Part shown: one piece after another, positions 37,802 to 48,172 of the stretch
Layout of the letters: the number at the start of each line of letters is the position of its first letter
How positions within the stretch are numbered: the stretch's first letter is position 1
Assembly (NCBI RefSeq): GCF_902150035.1
Contig: NZ_LR597501.1
Location: 248,001-312,000 of the forward strand
DNA: 64,000 bases
DNA from: Enorma burkinafasonensis
GTDB lineage: Bacteria > Actinomycetota > Coriobacteriia > Coriobacteriales > Coriobacteriaceae
Direction of reading: 5' to 3'
Translations under genes and position numbers: made by a program
The notes under the pieces: model-generated
Database searches by the model: none
What the model was told of the DNA's origin: nothing
Seen by the model: only the letters and a program-made list of their open reading frames with translations

Positions 37802-37958
37802 ACCCAGACACATTTTTCGATTTTGTACGATTGGCCTATGTTCGCCCCAAAATCGAGAAGCCCTCAACTGGGCTTTTCCCATGCGGCGGCGCCCCTTGAG
37901 GCAAAGATGCCAGAAAAGGCCGCAAACAGTCGTACAAAATCGAAAGAAGTGTCTAGGT
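37802..37958. repeat. 157 bp element with 29 bp terminal inverted repeats (MITE-like)
   Basis: The left arm 37802-37830 and right arm 37930-37958 agree at 26 of 29 positions, with a perfect 16 bp core around TCGATTTTGTACGA. The centre carries no gene. It includes AAGCCC, TCAACT, GGGCTT with T's (37858-37877), which resembles a small terminator. No target duplication is evident. The 75 bp between this element and the IS256-type insertion show nothing else clear. Confidence 0.8.
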
Positions 37959-38033: not shown

Positions 38034-39495
38034 GTCGGAAATGTTGGTGTAAGAGGACGCTGCCTGTAAGCGAAACGGCCATTGCCTAGAATCTGAAATC
38101 GCGACATTACAGGTTCTAGAGAAAGGCAACGACCGCGATGAACAGCATACCAGAGTCGGCGATTCTCCCGCCCGCGCTTCCCCGCTTCGAGGACGGCTTC
38201 ATCAACATGCAGGAGCTCCTGAGATCGCTGGCCGAGTCCGTGGTCAACGAGATCATGCCCGCCGAGGCGGACCAGCTCTGCGACGCCACCGGCAACAGCG
38301 GGAACGGGTACAGGGAGCGGCCCCTCGTCACGTGCGTCGGCACGCTCACGCTGCGCATCCCCAAGCTGCGCGTCGGCAGCTTCTTCCCCGGCGACGCGAT
38401 CGAGCGCTACCAGAGGGTCGACAGGGCGATCGTGGCGGCGGTCAGCGAGATGCACGCGACCGGCACGAGCACGAGGAAGGTGCAGAAGGCCGCCGCGGCG
38501 ATGGGCGTCGAGCGCCTCTCCAAGGACCAGGTCAGCGCGATCTGCGAGCACCTGGACGCCGAGGTGGAGGAGCTCGTCTCGCGGCCGCTGGGCGCGCTCG
38601 GGATGCCGTGCCTGTGGGTGGACGCCACCTACGTCAAGTGCCGCAGGGACCGCCGCGTCGCCTCGACGGCCGTGGTCACGGCCATCGGCTGCGACGAGGG
38701 CGGCTGGCGGCGCGTGCTGGGCGTCTCCGTCGTGGACACCGAGGGCTACGACTCCTGGGTCGGCTTCCTGAGGAGGATCAGGGCGCGCGGCGTGACGGGG
38801 GTCCAGCTCGTCACATCCGACGCGCACGAGGGCCTGAGGAGGGCCATCGAGGAGGTCTTTCAGGGCTCGGCGTGGCAGCGCTGCGTCGTGCACCTCATGC
38901 GCGACTGCGCCCGCGCCGCGCCCGTGTCGAGGGGCCGCGTCAGGCGTGTGTGCAAGATGGTGGCGCCGGTCTTCCGCCTCAAGGAGGCCGGGGCGGTGAG
39001 GGCCGCCTACCACCTGGCGGTCGACATGCTCGAGGGGTGCTGCCCGGAGGCGGCGAGAATCCTGGGGGGCGCCGAGCCAGACGCCCTCGCTCACCTCGAC
39101 TTCCCTCCGGGCCACTGGAAGCGCCTGCGCACCAACAACGTGCAGGAGAGGGCCAACAGGGAGATAAAGCGCAGGGCGCGCGTGGTGCAGGCGTTCCCGA
39201 GCACGGCGTCGCTGGAGCGGCTGGCGGGAGCGGTCATGTGCGACCAGGACGAGGCGCGGTCGGACGCGCGCTACTTCCCCGCGGGGGCGATGTCCGAGCT
39301 CTACGAGGAGCAGGGGGCGGCGGAGGCGGCCTCGCCGGAGAGGCGGGATGAGTGGCTTTCGGTGGCGAAGAAGGCGATCGAGGCCAGCCTCGAGCTTGCC
39401 GACGAGCTGGAGGCGGCATAGGATGGGGTTGGTTAAGGATTTAGGGTGATGGCCAGCCTGCTTGCAGAATCGACCCATACACCAACTTTCTCGAC
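38034..39495 (+). mobile_element. IS256-family insertion sequence
   Basis: An element of about 1.46 kb with one transposase gene. The outer 18 bp at each end (38034-38051 and 39478-39495) are inverted repeats agreeing at 15 positions, with a shared core GTTGGTGTA. Weaker similarity (GGCCAT) continues about 50 bp inward. I see no 8-9 bp target duplication, so the exact ends are uncertain by a few bases or the copy is old. Confidence 0.82.
38138..39421 (+). CDS. IS256-family (Mutator-type) transposase
   Basis: A 427-residue DDE transposase that appears intact. The acidic triad is plausibly in CLWVDATYVK, QLVTSDAHEGL and NNVQERANREIKRRAR, with the family's C/H region WQRCVVHLMRD between. The N-terminal half has the helix-turn-helix-like stretch TGTSTRKVQKAAAAMGVERLS. 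ATG 38138 has an AAAGG site 11 nt upstream. Nothing suggests inactivation, so the element may still be mobile. Confidence 0.93.
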   Translation: MNSIPESAILPPALPRFEDGFINMQELLRSLAESVVNEIMPAEADQLCDATGNSGNGYRERPLVTCVGTLTLRIPKLRVGSFFPGDAIERYQRVDRAIVAAVSEMHATGTSTRKVQKAAAAMGVERLSKDQVSAICEHLDAEVEELVSRPLGALGMPCLWVDATYVKCRRDRRVASTAVVTAIGCDEGGWRRVLGVSVVDTEGYDSWVGFLRRIRARGVTGVQLVTSDAHEGLRRAIEEVFQGSAWQRCVVHLMRDCARAAPVSRGRVRRVCKMVAPVFRLKEAGAVRAAYHLAVDMLEGCCPEAARILGGAEPDALAHLDFPPGHWKRLRTNNVQERANREIKRRARVVQAFPSTASLERLAGAVMCDQDEARSDARYFPAGAMSELYEEQGAAEAASPERRDEWLSVAKKAIEASLELADELEAA

Positions 39496-39597: not shown

Positions 39598-40644
39598 CTA
39601 AGACGTCACGTAGAACCAACGGACCTGATCGCCATCGGACAGCACGTAGTTGCTCGCACTGGTGTTGATGCTATTGCCGTTCACGGTATACACCCATCCG
39701 CTCATATCGCCGTGCTCTTTCTCGGCGAGGCCCGCGATGGCGGAGACGTATATGCCGTACGCCGTCGATTGGGCGTTCACGCTGATGCCCGTCGCTAGCA
39801 GGGCGTCGTAGACCGTGGAGCCGGCGACGAGCGAAAGGTTGGCAGAAGAGCTCCCTGCACCCACCGATGAACCATCGACCGTAATGGCGACCGAGATGCT
39901 GGCGTCCGACGACCCCCCGCTGGTGGAAGCCGTGTCACTCCCCTGCTCTTGCGAGGCGCCGGAAGCAGAGGACCCGTTCGACCCGGACGCCTCCCTAAAT
40001 GGAATCTCCGAGCCGTCGGGTAACACCGGAGCCTCGCCGGAAGCCTGCGCTATGCCGGATGCGGCAAGGGCATCGAAGCATGCGTCCGAGAACCGATAGG
40101 CGCTGCACGCAGCGACGAGCTCCGCCAAGCCACCGCTAGCAGGGGCCTGCGAAGCGTCCATGCAATAGGCGGCAATCACGGAGCCGGATGCGTCCTCGGC
40201 AATCCACGTGACACGATACCCATCCGCGCCCTGCTCACCCAGCCAAGATGCCAAGGCGGCCGTGCGGCGTGCGGAGAGCTCAGCAGCATCTGCGAGGTCG
40301 CCGGCAACCTTGGACTCCACCCACACGCCTCCGGAAGAGACGACGACCGAAAGCTCCTCTTCGGCGTCCAGCGAAACATCGTCACCATCGAATGCGAGGC
40401 CGCGCAGGGCGGCATCGATGTCCTCGACCGCGGGGGACCAGGCAGTCGAAGCGGAGTCTGCCTGGTCGGCATCGGACGCCTGGTCGTCCGCCACGGTGTT
40501 GAACAGCTCCGACGAGAGGAACGCCAAGGGGTCCCCGCCGGCGGCATAGATCCCCGCGCACCATGCGCACACCGCGATCAACACGGCAGCAACAAGTGCC
40601 ACGGCAAGGCGCGCAGGCGACACCCGAAAGAGGCTGCTACGCAT
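39598..40644 (-). CDS. Secreted DUF4430-domain protein
   Basis: A 348-residue exported protein. The N-terminal hydrophobic stretch (LAVALVAAVLIAVCAWCAGIYAAGG) is a signal peptide or anchor. A middle domain with a cysteine pair (about residues 110-210) and a Ser/Gly-rich linker follow. The C-terminal 90 residues are a DUF4430 domain (LVAGSTVYDALLATGI, SGWVYTVNGNSIN, LSDGDQVRWFYVTS). DUF4430 is related to the C-terminal domain of transcobalamin and intrinsic factor. The start codon overlaps the stop of the giant surface-protein gene by 8 bp (ATGCGTAG), so the two are translationally coupled and presumably share the cobalamin riboswitch. Confidence 0.87.
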   Translation of the reverse strand: MRSSLFRVSPARLAVALVAAVLIAVCAWCAGIYAAGGDPLAFLSSELFNTVADDQASDADQADSASTAWSPAVEDIDAALRGLAFDGDDVSLDAEEELSVVVSSGGVWVESKVAGDLADAAELSARRTAALASWLGEQGADGYRVTWIAEDASGSVIAAYCMDASQAPASGGLAELVAACSAYRFSDACFDALAASGIAQASGEAPVLPDGSEIPFREASGSNGSSASGASQEQGSDTASTSGGSSDASISVAITVDGSSVGAGSSSANLSLVAGSTVYDALLATGISVNAQSTAYGIYVSAIAGLAEKEHGDMSGWVYTVNGNSINTSASNYVLSDGDQVRWFYVTS

Positions 40645-43600
40645 GGCCTTCTCCCTTCTCGCGCCGGCGTCCCGTCATCCACGCTGCAGCGAGGACCAAG
40701 GCGCCAAGTCCCATACCCACAAACGGCCAGAGCGGCACCCCGTCGCGCGTGGCCGACGTAGCAGCCACGGCCTCCTCGCCATCGAGCAACGTCGCGACCG
40801 GGGCGTCCGATGCGAATCTGCCAAGCAGCGACCCTTCGGCAGAGCCCGCCGCGCCGCCGATCATGCCGTTGAGCGAGGTGCGCAGCGACGGAATCTGCGT
40901 GGACGAGCCAGCCGTGTTCCCCGCGCCATCCTCGCCCGGCGCATCCCCGGAGCCCGACTCATCGGGCTCGACGATGGCAGACCCCGGCAGGAGCTTGAAC
41001 AGGTAGCCAGAGTCATTCAGGTAGTAGACCGCGCCATCTGCACCCACGACCACGTTAGCGGTGCACCATTCCGCCGCGCTACCAGACGGAAGGTAGAGCA
41101 GCTTGGCGACGCTATCGCCAACACGGTAGAGATAGGCGGCGCCGGACGGCGCGTTGCAGGTGAAGTAGACGTACACAGCGCCATCGCGCACCGAGACGGT
41201 CGGCGTGGACATGACCGCGCCAGGCAGCGACGTGCCCTCGCCATAGGTCGTCACGCTATAGGCGACCTGCATGCTCGCCAGATCGATCACCGCGAGCACG
41301 CCGCCGTTATCCGCCGAAGTGCCGCCCACGTACGCCCGTCCACCGGTGATAGTAGGGGTCGATGTCGAGTACGCGGCAAAGGAGACGCCGCCCGTCTTGG
41401 AAAGCGACCCGTCCTCCCCAAGGGCAATCCTGTGGAGCACACCATCGCGCGAGGTCACATAGAGCACGGACGGGTCATCGGGGTCCGCAACGGGCTTGGA
41501 GCGGACCGTAGAGCCCAGGGGAAGCTCGGCCAAAACGTCGCCGGTCGCCGGGTCGATCGAACGCACCGTGCCGCTGCCGTCCACCGTGACCAGGACATCC
41601 CCGGTGAGCTCCGCGCCCGTCCAGTAGTACCCGGCATCCCCGGAGCCCGTGCTCGACCACCGCACGGCCCCGGTGCGCAGGTTCACGCAGAAGAAGGCGC
41701 CCGCATCACCCGCGGCGTTCGTCGTGCCAAAATACGCGTACCCGCCCACGACCGTGATCGAGGAGAGACTCTGCTGCCCTTCGGCAAGAACATCGGTGAG
41801 GGTGACCGTCACGAGCGTATCGGCCCTCAGCACCTGGAGGCGTCCGCCGTGAAGCGGCACGACAATGAGGCCGTCGCTATACACCACACGCGCCGCCGAG
41901 TCGATCGAGGTCGCAAGCACGGCGGACCCCAGCGACGCCCCGGTCGCAGCGTTGTAGACCTTGAGTTTGTCGCCCACGGCTACATACAAGCGCCCCTCCA
42001 CGATAACGGGGTCGCTCGCGTAGACGGACGACGAGATGTCGCTGCCCACGTCGACGCTCCAGGCGAGCTCGCCGCCCTCGGTGGGCGTGCCGTCGTTCTC
42101 GACAGCACCCGGGGCGAACCCCTCCCACTCAGCTTCCCAATCGCTCGGGCGGCCGTCCCAGGCATCCTGATCCACCTGGACGTCGTTCTGGGGCAGGTCG
42201 GTGCCCCGCGCCGAGTAATACCAGACGATCTGGCTACCTGGCTCGAGCACAATCTGCCCGGCGCCCACCGGTGCGGGCTCGCCGTCGACGAACAGCTGCC
42301 AGTACTTGCCCGTCGCCTCATCCCAGCCAAGCGCGGCACCGGTATAGGGCGACGTGATGGACGAGAGGAGGTACGCCCCGGTCCCCTCGCCGTCTGCCAC
42401 GTGCTCAAGGCTGCTCGCATCGAGCACGCGCTCCGTGAGGTCCGCTGCCGTGGAACCTTCGGGCAGGGAGACCTCGGTAAGCCCCACCCACGAGGTGTCT
42501 GCGCCCTCAGCATCCGGGCCTATAACCTGCACGATCGAAGTGACCTTGGCCGTACCGATATCGTCGAGCGACGCACCGTAGGCCGAGTAGTACCACACGA
42601 TCTCGTCGCCAGCTTGCAAGGTGACGTCGCCTGCGCCCACAGCAGACGCGGTGCCGTTCACAAACAGCTGCCAGTATTTGCCCGTGGCGTCATCGTAGGC
42701 GAGCACGCGGCCGTCCGGCGAGGTGATGCTGTTCAGATACCAACCGTACGCGCTTGTCTGCGCATCCGCCTCGAGGCCCGCCTCGGCCAAAAGAGTCTCC
42801 GTGAGCTCCGCAGCCGTGGTGCCCTGGGCAACCTCGATGCTAGCGGGCGCGGCCCACACCTCATCGTCCCCAAAGGCATCGACGCCCACCACCTGGGCGG
42901 TCACCGAGATGCCCTGCTCCGTGGAGCCCGAGGTCCCCCGGACGGTCACCGTCGCCGTCACGGTCTGGCCCGTGAGCTCCGCAAACACCGGGCCCCAGGT
43001 GGGGTCGTCCGCATAGCGCTCGGCATAGCGGGCATAGCGCTCGCTGGAAAGCTGACTCGTGATGGTCACCTGGGTGTCGCGCGCGGGCCTCGTGACGGCA
43101 AGCGTGTCGTGCGCGATGACGGTCGCGTTGCTCGACTTGTACCAGTGGCCGGCAACGACGCCCATGTCGTCGTCCGGCTCGAGGTCGTCCGTAACGATGC
43201 CGTCGCCGGCGGCGTTGGCCGTCGAGTAATCCCGCGCCCAAGCAAGCTCACCGTTCTCGTCGAGATAGGCCTTCTGGAACGTGGCGAGGTCGCCCGTGAC
43301 GGCGTTTACGTTCTGGCCGTTCAAGATGGCGGCGGCATAGCCTGCCTTGGCCGCATCCATGAGGTCGCGCTCGGCCTCGAGGTCAGAAGCATCGAGCGGA
43401 GCAACGACGAGTTCGATGGTCTTGCTAGCGGTAACCTCAGGGTTGTCTTTGCTGGTCACCGTGAGCGTGAGCTCGACCGGCTCGCCCTGCTCGCCCGGCA
43501 GCGGTTGGTACACGTTGCCGCGGTATCCGTTGATCTGAACGGCATCATTGGAGGCAGTGTATGTTACCGAGTAGTACTTTCCGTCGACCGCTATGGTGCC

Positions 43601-46543
43601 GGGCCGCGGCAGCTGAAGGTCGCCTGACACCGCGGACGCATCGATCGCGGAACCATCCTCACTGTAGGTGAGCGCTTCGGCGGAGAAGGCCTTGTCCACC
43701 TTAGCCTGCAGCTCCGCACGTGCCTGCTCGACCGCCGCAGGGTCAGCTTTCACCGTCACCGTGAACGGCACGTCCACCGTGACCTCAGGGGCGCCATACC
43801 CCGAGATGCCCACCGTCGCTGTGAGCGTGACCTCGGCATCGACGGAGCTTCGCGTAACGTCGCCGGTGTACGCGTCGTCCCAGCTGTAACCAGTAACCCT
43901 GACGGCGTCCGTGTTGGAAGAGGACCAGGAAACCTCGGACCAGCTCTTGCCGGAAAGCTCGGCCGGCAACATCATGTCCTGCGTGACGGCATCGGCTGCA
44001 TCACCCTCAGCAAACCCGATGGCAAGGGCCTCCGCGGCGTCCTGCACAAGCATCGCACGCACGCGCGCCTCATCCCACGGCATGGTGGTGGCACGGCCGG
44101 GTGTGAACGTTACGCTCTCGCCCCCGCGGGATAGCGTGAAGGTAGGCGTGATTGCTTGGTACGAGGTGAAACCAGCCCATCCCGTGAGATCGTCGGGATC
44201 CATGAAGAAGTAGGTGATGTCGCCGTTGGTAGCATCAGCCGCGGTCGAGATACCGAGCTCGGCGGCATCGTTAGGCGTTCTGACCTCAACCGATGCAACG
44301 CTCACTTCGACATCGGTGATGCCCATCTCCGCAAGCTGGGCTTCGAGCACCTCGTTGGCGTTCGTGTCCACGCCGTAGGTGAGCTCCAGACGCCAGTTCT
44401 CGTCCTGTAGCTTGGCCGTGATACCCGCAAGGGAGTCTGCATCGACAACAGGATTGGCCGAGACGATCTCGACCACAGAATCTCCGCTCGTCGCTACGAC
44501 CTTGAGGTACTTGCCGGCAAGGTCCGACGTCAAGGTAAGCTGTGCCGTATCCGCGCCGTCGATGGGCGCGAACTCACCGTCGGCAGCATCCGCCGCGTAC
44601 CACTGAATGGAAACATCGCTGGTAATCACGTCGCCCGTGGTCGTTGATCCGTCAAGCCGCTTGGCCTGCACCGTTGCGCTAACGGTGTCGCCCGTGAAGA
44701 GCTGCGTGGTGGAGCTGTTGATAAGGGGCGACGTGGTTACGCGCAGCAAGTCGTAGGTGTCCGCTGCAAGCACCGTGAAGCTTGCCGAGGTAACGGTGTT
44801 GTCGAGCGCGGACGCGCTTACGCGCAAAACCTTGCCCACCAGCGCATCGCTTAGCTCGAGCTCACCGGTCGACGCGTCGTAGATAACGCCCTCCAGGCGG
44901 GACCAGCTACCGTCCTCGTCCTGAACCTCCCATACAAACGTAAGCGCGGCGTCTTCGGGCGCCGGGTCGTCGCCGTAATACGCGCCCTCAACCATGGCCG
45001 TGGGCGTAATGGTGTTGCCCACCTGGCCCGCCTGGCCTGAGGACTCAAGCTCGACAGCCGTGAGCGTATACTGCCCGGCGATGGTCACCGGACCCAGCGG
45101 ATCAACCCGCTTCGTGCTGCCGTAATAGGGCTTCTCGGTGCTTACCACCGAGCCATCGCTCGTGGCGCGTACACGCAGGTACTTGCCTTGCATGTCCGCG
45201 GTAATGACATACGTCGAGTCGGTCGCGCCCGGAATGTCCGTGAACGCGGAGTCGGACGCGGTCTTGCTATCGGCGTACTGCCACTGATAACGGACCACAT
45301 CGCCCGGAGAGACCTCGGTGTACGAGTTGCCCTTGTAGGCCGTCGCCGTGAGCGTGGACCCAATGCGCGCATCGCCCGCCACCGTGACCTGGTAGAGTTC
45401 GACCGCTCCCGGTTCCACCACCGGGCCGACAACCGAGGAATCCTCCTCACCAAAGCCACCATCCGCACGCGCCTCGATATACTTGCCCAGAAGGTCCTCG
45501 GTCACCACGAGCGTGTTGCCCGAGGCCCCCTCGATCCTGGTATTTGTCGCATACGAGCTATCGCCGTAGTACCACGACCAGGTCACATGGCTGTCGTTGG
45601 TAACATCGTCCGTCGAGGCCGTGGCGGTTGCCGTAAGCGTGTCGCCCACGTTGACCTTGCCGGACGCATCGAGCGCAACGGACGTGACGTTCACCGCATC
45701 GCGAGCGGCAATGGGCAGGTTTACCGTACGCGCATACGTGCTCGTCCCAACCTTCGCCGAGACGACGCATTTGATGAACTTCCCCTCAAGGGACTCATCG
45801 ATCTCCAGCGTATCCGAAGTTGCCTCATCGAGATCCTGGTAGGTCCCGTTCTTCGTATCGGACACCTGCCACTGGAACGTCAGTAGCTCCGGGTCGATGT
45901 AGATGCCAGAAGGAGTACCCTTCTCGCGCGCCTTGGCAACTGCCTGATCGCCCACACGGAAGACCGAGCTCTCGTCTGCCGGATTCTGGATGACAACCGA
46001 GTAAATCTCGACCTGGCCCTCGAGCGGTTCGGTGTTTTCGAGTTCGACGCCTGAAAGTTGTACGCCTTCAGTGCTCAAAGCCGAAGAGCGCTCGTTGGAA
46101 GCGCCTTGGGCAGCGTCGCCATTGCCGCCGGATGTCTCCGAATTCGAAGTGCTAGATTCGTCCGTCCGCACAGCATCAGTCGACGTGGTCGGGCTCGATC
46201 CCTCGGAGCTAGGCCCATCACCCAAACCGCTCGAATTCGAATTAGCGCCTTCCGCGGAATCGCCGCCTTGGGGCTCAGAGCCCTGGCCGTTGGCACCAGA
46301 CCCCGGATTAGAGCCCTCGCCCAGGCTCTCTCCCGATGTCGCAACAGCATCCGCGATGCCCTCGACGCCGGTAGCCCAGAGCTCGGAAGGAGCCTGGCCC
46401 CAAAGCATGAGGCCAACCAGTCCGAAGCATAGCACCCGCCGCGCACTGCGCACGAACATATTAGTAGTACTACCGAGCGGACCATGCCGATGCGACGTCG
46501 TTGCAGCCGAGCTTGCGGTGCGTCCGCGATTGCGTCCGAACAT
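40637..46543 (-). CDS. Giant surface protein: Ig-like repeats, two DUF4430 domains, PQQ-like beta-propeller, C-terminal anchor
   Basis: A 1968-residue exported protein. A basic start and hydrophobic segment (about 29-57) act as an extended signal peptide. A Ser/Gly/Glu-rich linker (60-150) follows. Next come five or so Ig-like repeats with FQWQVSDTKNG or YQWQYADSK and GKYLRVRA signatures (about 160-690), and atrophied Ig-like segments with SWSSSNTDAVRVTGY and YTASNDAVQINGY (up to about 1230). Two DUF4430 domains lie near 1231-1325 and 1350-1452, both with GKYWQLFV and IVWYYSA. A PQQ-type beta-propeller (about 1480-1890) precedes a membrane helix (PFVGMGLGALVLAAAWM) and a charged tail. There is no LPXTG motif. 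The riboswitch and DUF4430 domains point to corrinoid binding. Confidence 0.9.
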   Translation of the reverse strand: MFGRNRGRTASSAATTSHRHGPLGSTTNMFVRSARRVLCFGLVGLMLWGQAPSELWATGVEGIADAVATSGESLGEGSNPGSGANGQGSEPQGGDSAEGANSNSSGLGDGPSSEGSSPTTSTDAVRTDESSTSNSETSGGNGDAAQGASNERSSALSTEGVQLSGVELENTEPLEGQVEIYSVVIQNPADESSVFRVGDQAVAKAREKGTPSGIYIDPELLTFQWQVSDTKNGTYQDLDEATSDTLEIDESLEGKFIKCVVSAKVGTSTYARTVNLPIAARDAVNVTSVALDASGKVNVGDTLTATATASTDDVTNDSHVTWSWYYGDSSYATNTRIEGASGNTLVVTEDLLGKYIEARADGGFGEEDSSVVGPVVEPGAVELYQVTVAGDARIGSTLTATAYKGNSYTEVSPGDVVRYQWQYADSKTASDSAFTDIPGATDSTYVITADMQGKYLRVRATSDGSVVSTEKPYYGSTKRVDPLGPVTIAGQYTLTAVELESSGQAGQVGNTITPTAMVEGAYYGDDPAPEDAALTFVWEVQDEDGSWSRLEGVIYDASTGELELSDALVGKVLRVSASALDNTVTSASFTVLAADTYDLLRVTTSPLINSSTTQLFTGDTVSATVQAKRLDGSTTTGDVITSDVSIQWYAADAADGEFAPIDGADTAQLTLTSDLAGKYLKVVATSGDSVVEIVSANPVVDADSLAGITAKLQDENWRLELTYGVDTNANEVLEAQLAEMGITDVEVSVASVEVRTPNDAAELGISTAADATNGDITYFFMDPDDLTGWAGFTSYQAITPTFTLSRGGESVTFTPGRATTMPWDEARVRAMLVQDAAEALAIGFAEGDAADAVTQDMMLPAELSGKSWSEVSWSSSNTDAVRVTGYSWDDAYTGDVTRSSVDAEVTLTATVGISGYGAPEVTVDVPFTVTVKADPAAVEQARAELQAKVDKAFSAEALTYSEDGSAIDASAVSGDLQLPRPGTIAVDGKYYSVTYTASNDAVQINGYRGNVYQPLPGEQGEPVELTLTVTSKDNPEVTASKTIELVVAPLDASDLEAERDLMDAAKAGYAAAILNGQNVNAVTGDLATFQKAYLDENGELAWARDYSTANAAGDGIVTDDLEPDDDMGVVAGHWYKSSNATVIAHDTLAVTRPARDTQVTITSQLSSERYARYAERYADDPTWGPVFAELTGQTVTATVTVRGTSGSTEQGISVTAQVVGVDAFGDDEVWAAPASIEVAQGTTAAELTETLLAEAGLEADAQTSAYGWYLNSITSPDGRVLAYDDATGKYWQLFVNGTASAVGAGDVTLQAGDEIVWYYSAYGASLDDIGTAKVTSIVQVIGPDAEGADTSWVGLTEVSLPEGSTAADLTERVLDASSLEHVADGEGTGAYLLSSITSPYTGAALGWDEATGKYWQLFVDGEPAPVGAGQIVLEPGSQIVWYYSARGTDLPQNDVQVDQDAWDGRPSDWEAEWEGFAPGAVENDGTPTEGGELAWSVDVGSDISSSVYASDPVIVEGRLYVAVGDKLKVYNAATGASLGSAVLATSIDSAARVVYSDGLIVVPLHGGRLQVLRADTLVTVTLTDVLAEGQQSLSSITVVGGYAYFGTTNAAGDAGAFFCVNLRTGAVRWSSTGSGDAGYYWTGAELTGDVLVTVDGSGTVRSIDPATGDVLAELPLGSTVRSKPVADPDDPSVLYVTSRDGVLHRIALGEDGSLSKTGGVSFAAYSTSTPTITGGRAYVGGTSADNGGVLAVIDLASMQVAYSVTTYGEGTSLPGAVMSTPTVSVRDGAVYVYFTCNAPSGAAYLYRVGDSVAKLLYLPSGSAAEWCTANVVVGADGAVYYLNDSGYLFKLLPGSAIVEPDESGSGDAPGEDGAGNTAGSSTQIPSLRTSLNGMIGGAAGSAEGSLLGRFASDAPVATLLDGEEAVAATSATRDGVPLWPFVGMGLGALVLAAAWMTGRRREKGEGHA

Positions 46544-46587
46544 GCCGGACCCCTTTCCCCCAGGGCCATGACGCGCACGTGCACGAC

Positions 46588-46747
46588 CGATGCGAGGCGA
46601 TCCGGCTTATCGCAACCGTACCGTGCGCATCGTCCGATCTGCGACGCGACCCCACGGCACCGCGAATTACGGTTACTGGTATAGCTGGGGACTCTCACCC
46701 CATTCCCCTGGGCGCATAGGCACCCGTGCGTCTCCGCACCTGCATCG
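46588..46747 (-). promoter_or_regulatory. Cobalamin riboswitch upstream of the DUF4430 surface operon
   Basis: The minus-strand leader has the cobalamin aptamer landmarks in order. A P1 stem pairs CGATGC (46742-46747) with GCATCG (46588-46593). The core is GGGAA followed by GGGGTGAGAGTCCCCAGC (46684-46708). Next come CTATACCAGTAACCGTAAT, matching the consensus CUGUCCCGCAACUGUAAU region, and a B12-box-like AAGCCGGATCGCCTCGC just before the closing P1 strand. The 40 nt after it hold GGCCC and GGGTCC arms around the ribosome site, which would suit translational control. The match is by eye; a covariance model search would settle it. Confidence 0.8.
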
Positions 46748-46998: not shown

Positions 46999-47038
46999 CG
47001 TTGCTGCGTTTAAGGCAAGCAGATTGTCGAGGACCTCT

Positions 47039-48172
47039 ATGCGTGATACCAAGCGTTCCATCATCAAGGTGATCGCCGGCAAGCCGGCCCGCGCCCTCAC
47101 GTGCGCGGCGCTCGCCGTCGCGTTCACCGCCACGCCGATGATCGCTCCCCTCTCCGCGTATGCCATCTCCGCCGAGACCCAGGCGCAGCTCGAGTCCGCC
47201 GCCCAGGCGGTCGAGGACTCCGCTGCGGCGTACGACGAGGCCGTCGCCAACCTGGAGGAGCTCCAGGCCCAGATCGACGAGAACACCGCCGCCATCGCCG
47301 AGCTCCAGGAGCAGCTTCCCGTCCAGCAGGAGGCCGCCAGCGAGGCCATGCGCGAGATGTACAAGTACCAGACGGGCTCCAACCAGCTCGTGACCATGGT
47401 CCTCAACTCCGAGAGCATGAGTGACTTCATCACGACCTGCGTGTACATGGATGAGATCCAGGCCTCCAACGTCGAGGCCATCGAGGAGCTCAACGCAACC
47501 CAGTCCGAGCTCGAGCAGACCCAGGCCGAGCTCGATGAGCAGAAGCGCCAGCTCGAGGAGCAGCAGCAGGCCGCTGCCGACGCCCTCGCCGAGGCGCAGC
47601 AGCTCCGTGCCGACGCCCAGGCCCAGGCCGAGGCCGAGGCCGCGCTCGAGCTCGCCGCCGCCCTCGCCGCGCAGGACACCTCCCCGGCCGAGAGCACGGA
47701 GGACTCGAACGGCGACAACCCCTACAACACCGCCAACCAGTCCGGCCAGACCGCGAACACCGTCGTCACCGGCGGCGCCGTCAACTGGAACATGAGCCGC
47801 GAGGAGTTCATCGCCGAGTGGACCGGGCGCATCGACGCCTATCTCGCGGGCTCCCCGCTCGCCGGCCATGGCGCCACGTTCGCCACCGCCGCCTGGGATT
47901 ACGGCGTGGACCCGCGCTGGTCTCCCGCGATCTCGTGCATCGAGAGCACCAAGGGCCGCTACTGCGCCAACACCTGCAACGCCTGGGGCTGGACGGCCGC
48001 CGGCGGCGGCTTCCGCGCCTTCGGCAGCTGGGACGAGGGCATCACCGCCCACGTTCGCTACCTGCGCAACATGTACGGCCCGACGCTCACCGTGGCCGCC
48101 GCCCAGCGCTACTGCCCGCCCACCTGGCAGGACTGGTACAACAAGGTCGGCTCGCAAATGAACTGCATCTAG
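47039..48172 (+). CDS. Secreted coiled-coil peptidoglycan hydrolase (lysozyme-like)
   Basis: A 377-residue exported protein. A signal peptide (ALTCAALAVAFTATPMIAPLSAYA) is followed by a long coiled coil (about 50-215; AVANLEELQAQIDENTAAIA, then Gln/Glu/Ala heptads) like the N-terminal part of PcsB/CwlO-type hydrolases. A Ser/Asn-rich linker leads to a C-terminal lysozyme-like domain of about 120 residues (WSPAISCIESTKGRYC, NAWGWTAAGGGFRAFGSW, HVRYLRNMYGP). The glutamate in CIESTKG is the likely catalytic acid. Four cysteines may form disulfides. ATG 47039 has a GAGGA site. It probably acts in cell separation, controlled through the coiled coil; this is inferred from the PcsB/CwlO analogy. Confidence 0.87.
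   Translation: MRDTKRSIIKVIAGKPARALTCAALAVAFTATPMIAPLSAYAISAETQAQLESAAQAVEDSAAAYDEAVANLEELQAQIDENTAAIAELQEQLPVQQEAASEAMREMYKYQTGSNQLVTMVLNSESMSDFITTCVYMDEIQASNVEAIEELNATQSELEQTQAELDEQKRQLEEQQQAAADALAEAQQLRADAQAQAEAEAALELAAALAAQDTSPAESTEDSNGDNPYNTANQSGQTANTVVTGGAVNWNMSREEFIAEWTGRIDAYLAGSPLAGHGATFATAAWDYGVDPRWSPAISCIESTKGRYCANTCNAWGWTAAGGGFRAFGSWDEGITAHVRYLRNMYGPTLTVAAAQRYCPPTWQDWYNKVGSQMNCI

Follow-up and report, generated by a model that had tools for sequence, protein, structure and literature searches.

Vitamin B12 is contested in the gut. A 2019 survey described the B12 transport systems of many gut genomes as an open identification problem (PMC6593275). The closest described design is that of Burroughs et al. 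2007, who defined a transcobalamin-like clade of SLBB domains, listed a beta-propeller fusion from Clostridium, noticed operons that hold another, paralogous SLBB gene as well as CbiO/CbiQ, and suggested a role in B12 scavenging (PMC1796856). On the side of import, ECF-CbrT has been shown to transport both cobalamin and cobinamide, and ECF systems are normally described with the S-component itself as the binding protein (PMC5997447). Here we analyse a pair of genes within a 64,000-nucleotide stretch of the Enorma burkinafasonensis genome (the window), whose products very probably form a capture relay for vitamin B12 (cobamides) that feeds an importer of the ECF-CbrT type. A prediction of the general design dates from 2007, and the present case is a well-supported new instance of it; to that prediction it adds a cobalamin riboswitch and a CbrT-like S-component, together with the metabolic need, the fold evidence and the breadth within the Coriobacteriia. 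A literature search, with most subscription journals outside its scope, turned up no experimental study of these proteins.

Results

The larger ORF is intact and encodes a protein of 1968 aa. Behind a signal region and an acidic linker come Ig-like repeats and two aBig_2 domains; a pair of DUF4430 domains and a propeller follow, with a membrane helix near the C-terminus (Table 1). A direct sequence search of the PDB with the whole protein gave no matches. Pfam recognises DUF4430 (PF14478) in two stretches, at 85.6 bits against a curated cut-off of 23.8. An earlier note on this DNA had claimed two DUF4430 domains that share GKYWQLFV and IVWYYSA motifs, and this holds, with GKYWQLFV at residues 1288 and 1412 and the IVWYYSA motif after each. 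It had also claimed that the small downstream protein repeats the DUF4430 motif without a propeller. The protein does carry one DUF4430 domain and, by Pfam, no propeller, but its copy of the motif has diverged (SGWVYTVNG, 28% identity). Together, these three domains are all the DUF4430s that Pfam finds in the whole genome.

Table 1. Features of the gene pair and its leader, in window positions.
Feature	Position	Strand	Basis
AdoCbl-II (RF01689) cobalamin riboswitch aptamer, big-gene leader	46646..46723	-	30.8 bits (below the gathering score), E 3.8e-5 in a 751-base search
Riboswitch loop CCAGTAACCGT	46669..46679	-	Identical in 33/33 aligned leaders; these were chosen by this motif, so part of the invariance is selection
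CCCTGG, ribosome-binding site and ATG	46541..46565	-	Sequence; proposed kissing partner of the CCAG loop
Big gene, surface protein (Ig-like repeats, two DUF4430, propeller, C-terminal TM)	40637..46543	-	ORF, Pfam, model, sequence
Predicted signal-peptide region, residues 1-60	46364..46543	-	Basic N-terminus, then hydrophobic stretch, by eye from sequence
Ig-like repeats, residues about 170-810	44114..46036	-	GK(Y/F)(I/L) motifs recurring at 254, 353, 453 and 677; ZirU_fam match sub-threshold
aBig_2 (atrophied bacterial Ig domains, PF20578), residues about 833-1205	42929..44047	-	56.9 bits vs cut-off 27, two stretches
DUF4430 (transcobalamin beta-domain-like) copy 1, residues 1206-1331	42551..42928	-	Pfam; profile matches transcobalamin-2 and -1 in the PDB
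DUF4430 copy 2, residues 1332-1458	42170..42550	-	Pfam and alignment
Eight-bladed BamB/PQQ-type beta-propeller, residues 1459-1866	40946..42169	-	AlphaFold2 model, Foldseek, conservation in 80 homologues
C-terminal TM anchor, residues about 1936-1958, then GRRREK	40670..40738	-	Sole hydrophobic 19-mer >1.5 in the big protein
Small gene, 348-aa DUF4430 protein	39598..40644	-	ORF and Pfam; 8-base overlap with big-gene end
N-terminal TM helix of small protein, residues 10-34	40543..40617	-	Model and sequence
Alpha/beta middle domain of small protein, residues 70-196	40057..40437	-	Model pLDDT 84-96
DUF4430 of small protein, residues 249-346	39607..39900	-	Pfam, 58.5 bits vs 23.8

The model of the small protein has an overall pLDDT of 82, and its middle domain has no Pfam match despite the high-confidence predicted fold. 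As modelled, its DUF4430 domain adopts the beta-grasp fold known from the beta domain of transcobalamin. Foldseek aligns the small protein with the human transcobalamin beta domain at target-normalised TM scores of 0.81 (5no0) and 0.83 (5np4), the latter being, by its PDB title, the isolated human beta domain deposited with cyanocobalamin. All 19 of the 19 matches at E ≤ 1e-3 are transcobalamin, haptocorrin, intrinsic factor or the Ruminococcus gnavus protein 3u7z, and the top five matches of a PDB search with the DUF4430 domain profile are all transcobalamins.

For the region of the DUF4430 pair and propeller (residues 1206-1885), an AlphaFold2 model based on an alignment of 20 homologues reached a pLDDT of 87 and a pTM of 0.85. 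The earlier note had seen seven or more propeller-type strands directly after the pair; the propeller is indeed there, and manual assignment from the DSSP string of the model gives eight four-stranded blades, with N-terminal strands closing the ring. A pTM of 0.85 for a stretch of 680 residues suggests a defined predicted packing of the DUF4430 pair against the propeller. Foldseek places BamB and designed eight-bladed propellers as the best matches of this model, in agreement with the sequence profile, while Pfam yields a single weak match on the propeller, to Beta-prop_ACSF4 (40 bits, under the cut-off of 133). A conserved surface, the lack of which the note had named as counter-evidence, is present: across 80 homologues, conservation is higher in the loop residues that immediately precede the inner strands than elsewhere in the loops (p = 1.5e-4, glycine and proline excluded), and the conserved face includes D1511, R1552, Q1591, Y1639, Y1640, W1641, R1681 and N1797. 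By propeller geometry the most conserved loop residues, W1641, R1552, Q1591, Y1640 and R1681, ring one mouth of the channel. Such residues fit a site for a ligand or partner, but could also be structural.

A whole-genome AdoCbl-II search gave one match (E 2.7e-5), which is the leader of the big gene at 46646-46723. Its score lies below the Rfam gathering score of 36.5, and the leaders of homologous big genes score above this threshold. Outside the CCAGTAACCGT motif, the aligned leaders contain a covarying stem. The core motif of the riboswitch occurs upstream of the big gene in 17 of 20 homologues, the window counted. A contig scan of genomes yielded 145 relatives, the best 80 of which form a set of 81 loci with the window, and in 45 of these 81 the strict motif lies near the big-gene start. 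Five loci of other lineages (L133, L151, L157, L159 and L162), found without motif selection, have the canonical Cobalamin riboswitch (RF00174, 74-88 bits) before the fusion gene; among them is Cuneatibacter caecimuris, a member of the Lachnospiraceae. No cobalamin riboswitch reaches threshold at three Olsenella-group loci (L089, L096 and L103). As for the mode of control, the CCCTGG beside the ribosome-binding site could, judging by its letters, form a kissing interaction with the CCAG loop. CCYTGGR follows 32 of 47 such riboswitches, where mononucleotide shuffles lead one to expect 1.7, and this enrichment, together with the place of CCCTGG by the ribosome-binding site, points to control of translation. 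Predicted terminators and promoters were no better than in shuffles. Two further arrangements were seen in relatives: a Gordonibacter locus (L114, 2810-3282) has two tandem cobalamin-riboswitch cores upstream of the fusion gene, and another locus (L066, contig C5 of G045) has the same riboswitch type ahead of genes that, as read from the encoded proteins, serve cobalamin biosynthesis.

The fusion is present in 30 of 60 relatives and in 13 of 25 genera. The best 80 of the 145 relatives are Coriobacteriia almost throughout, with two Clostridia, and include a contig of a same-genus genome (L084, from G004). Accordingly, the domain pair that the earlier note had described recurs in related genomes, across the Coriobacteriia and in Clostridia, and because the fusion architecture is conserved in relatives, it is not due to chance. 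Many fusions hold two to five DUF4430 copies, and some relatives have just one, diverged DUF4430 beside the propeller. The small DUF4430 gene comes next after the fusion at 75 of the 81 loci (window and best 80 of 145), and EcfT follows directly after the small gene at 40 of them, the usual order being riboswitch, big gene, small gene, EcfT, dual ATPase and S-component. In fusion-free relatives, the riboswitch is followed by the small DUF4430 gene, EcfT, ATPases and S. Since riboswitch, small gene and ECF genes thus stand together even there, it looks like the small protein and the ECF transporter are the core, to which the big protein was added as a capture device.

The conserved S-component family has ECF-CbrT (6fnp, E 1.8e-11) as its best PDB match, and the identity of EcfT was confirmed. 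DUF4430 and the CbrT-like S-component co-occur among 60 genomes (counts 42/5/4/9; Fisher p 6.6e-5, phylogeny ignored). Two suppositions of the earlier note gain from these results: its link to transcobalamin, through the upstream cobalamin riboswitch and the transcobalamin-like fold, and its relay to a membrane importer, through the CbrT-like ECF transporter that lies in the same operon in many relatives. Its suggestion of BtuFCD as partner finds no support, as this genome has no BtuF-type binding protein (PF01497), which 13 of 14 control genomes do have. The CbrT-like S-component, EcfT and the ATPases are all present in this genome (G000); the T-ATPase-S set lies on contig C4, not linked to the DUF4430 pair, and no cobalamin riboswitch was found at these genes. 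CbiC is absent and the one protein with a B12-binding domain is MetH-like, so that, going by gene content, the organism should require external cobamide for MetH. The DUF4430 pair with the ECF set is the sole uptake candidate found in this genome.

The flanks of the pair hold features of their own. Downstream of the small gene, at a distance of about 100 bases, lies a single-copy IS256-family element with terminal inverted repeats (38034-39495), and between it and a GtrA-like gene a large imperfect inverted repeat (37802-37958) with 32-base arms, 88% complementary and 93 bases apart. The place of the IS256 element is taken in L034 and L038 by a riboflavin-type ECF cassette and an FMN riboswitch. 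The product of a divergent gene at 47024-48172 is a PcsB-like coiled-coil protein, secreted and with an end that weakly resembles a glucosaminidase, and the same neighbour is found in L044, L048 and L049.

Discussion

The computation shows the domains and folds, the riboswitch and the conservation of the operon; for this genome it also shows a CbrT-like ECF set and MetH, and the lack of CbiC and BtuF. On this basis we propose that, when adenosylcobalamin is scarce, the riboswitch would permit translation of the operon. The big protein would be held in the membrane by its C-terminal helix, with the DUF4430 pair and propeller near the membrane and the Ig-like array pointing outward. It would catch B12, its DUF4430 domains acting like the transcobalamin beta domain, and the mouth of the propeller channel would provide either the other half of the B12 site or a dock for a partner. 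B12 would then be handed to the small anchored DUF4430 protein and on to the CbrT-like S-component of the ECF transporter, for import and use by MetH. We infer the binding of B12 by DUF4430, the hand-over of the ligand and, above all, the role of the propeller. Points against such a relay are that the riboswitch of the window falls under the gathering threshold, that the ECF genes are unlinked here, with no cobalamin riboswitch found at them, and that the propeller is of BamB/PQQ type and not recognisably related to the B12-binding propeller BtuG.

So what could the propeller contribute to the relay? Docking and direct contact with B12 are both candidate readings of what it may do. It could make no contact with B12 and instead dock the small protein, the S-component or cell-wall material, leaving DUF4430 alone to bind the vitamin, a reading to which we give nearly an even chance. 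Its nearest folds are those of BamB, itself a protein-docking propeller, and genomes with the small DUF4430 gene and ECF alone do without a propeller. Fused domains of this kind were also proposed in 2007 to be surface tethers (PMC1796856). However, the five most conserved loop residues ring the channel mouth and not the outer edge, and the pTM of the model suggests a defined packing of DUF4430 against the propeller. The aromatic and charged character of that ring and the tight packing in the predicted model would rather fit a B12 site composed of the propeller and the DUF4430 pair, with DUF4430 as a lid and the whole a convergent analogue of BtuG. The domains are acidic, as the binding face of BtuG2 is negatively charged (PMC10404256), and in transcobalamin B12 is sandwiched by two domains (PMC1796856). 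Conversely, the propeller has no BtuG sequence match at E ≤ 0.01, BtuG is absent from the best 50 Foldseek folds of its model, and the DUF4430 beside it is single and diverged in some relatives; we regard the composite site as possible, while leaning somewhat against it. The likeness to BtuG would be functional at most. It is a tentative and rather doubtful proposal that the propeller mouth and flanking DUF4430 domains jointly make up a cobamide site of high affinity, which feeds an ECF transporter through a tethered shuttle; B12-binding propellers would then have arisen a second time, independently of BtuG. If the composite-site reading is true, this ECF importer would be served by its own chain of extracellular receptors.

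Readings that depart from B12 capture find less room. EcfT proteins are members of the CbiQ family, whose name refers to cobalt transport, and the FMN-riboswitch ECF cassette of L034 and L038 lies just downstream of the small gene, so a ligand such as riboflavin or a cobalt complex has to be considered. We find this improbable, however, for cobalamin riboswitches lead the pair across lineages and the conserved partner S-component is CbrT-like; the cassette has its own FMN riboswitch, which marks it as a separate neighbour and rules it out as a partner. The label 'PQQ-type' in the earlier note stands as a description of the fold, but nothing here points to PQQ. With that fold and a weak sequence similarity to quinoprotein dehydrogenases, the propeller might bind PQQ, or be an extracellular quinoprotein enzyme using DUF4430-bound cobamide. 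Yet these dehydrogenases align in part and weakly (best E 5e-10, compared to 7e-28 for designed propellers), BamB-type folds score higher and the operon context is one of transport, and we hold this last reading to be highly improbable.

The B12 relay would give a widespread family of Coriobacteriia, comprising Collinsella, Enorma, Olsenella, Slackia, Gordonibacter and Eggerthella, a candidate B12 capture system, whose proteins may be bacterial kin of the human B12 carriers, active in the same gut. It also suggests extracellular receptors for some ECF importers.

With the transcobalamin-like SLBB clade (PMC1796856), the present locus shares secreted DUF4430-type domains, a propeller fusion, a second paralogous DUF4430 gene in the operon, nearby ECF genes of CbiO/CbiQ type and a predicted role in scavenging B12. 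Compared to the Clostridium fusion, known by description (PMC1796856), it differs in its occurrence in Coriobacteriia, the two to five DUF4430 domains in many members, the Ig-like array, the cobalamin riboswitch, the CbrT-like S-component and, in this genome, the unlinked ECF genes. The BtuG surface lipoprotein of Bacteroides (PMC10404256) is likewise a surface beta-propeller in a B12 uptake locus; it is seven-bladed, however, and works with the outer-membrane BtuB and without DUF4430, whereas the propeller described here has eight blades and no recognisable sequence relation to it. Transcobalamin, haptocorrin and intrinsic factor, the animal B12 carriers, have the fold and sequence profile of their beta domain in common with DUF4430, while in the proteins described here a propeller takes the place of the alpha/alpha toroid, of which Pfam finds none, and the proteins are membrane-anchored. 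Lastly, the partner S-component and EcfT are homologous to those of the ECF-CbrT transporter of Lactobacillus delbrueckii (6FNP, PMC5997447), from which the present system differs by its dedicated T-ATPase fusion-S set and by the addition of two extracellular DUF4430 proteins.
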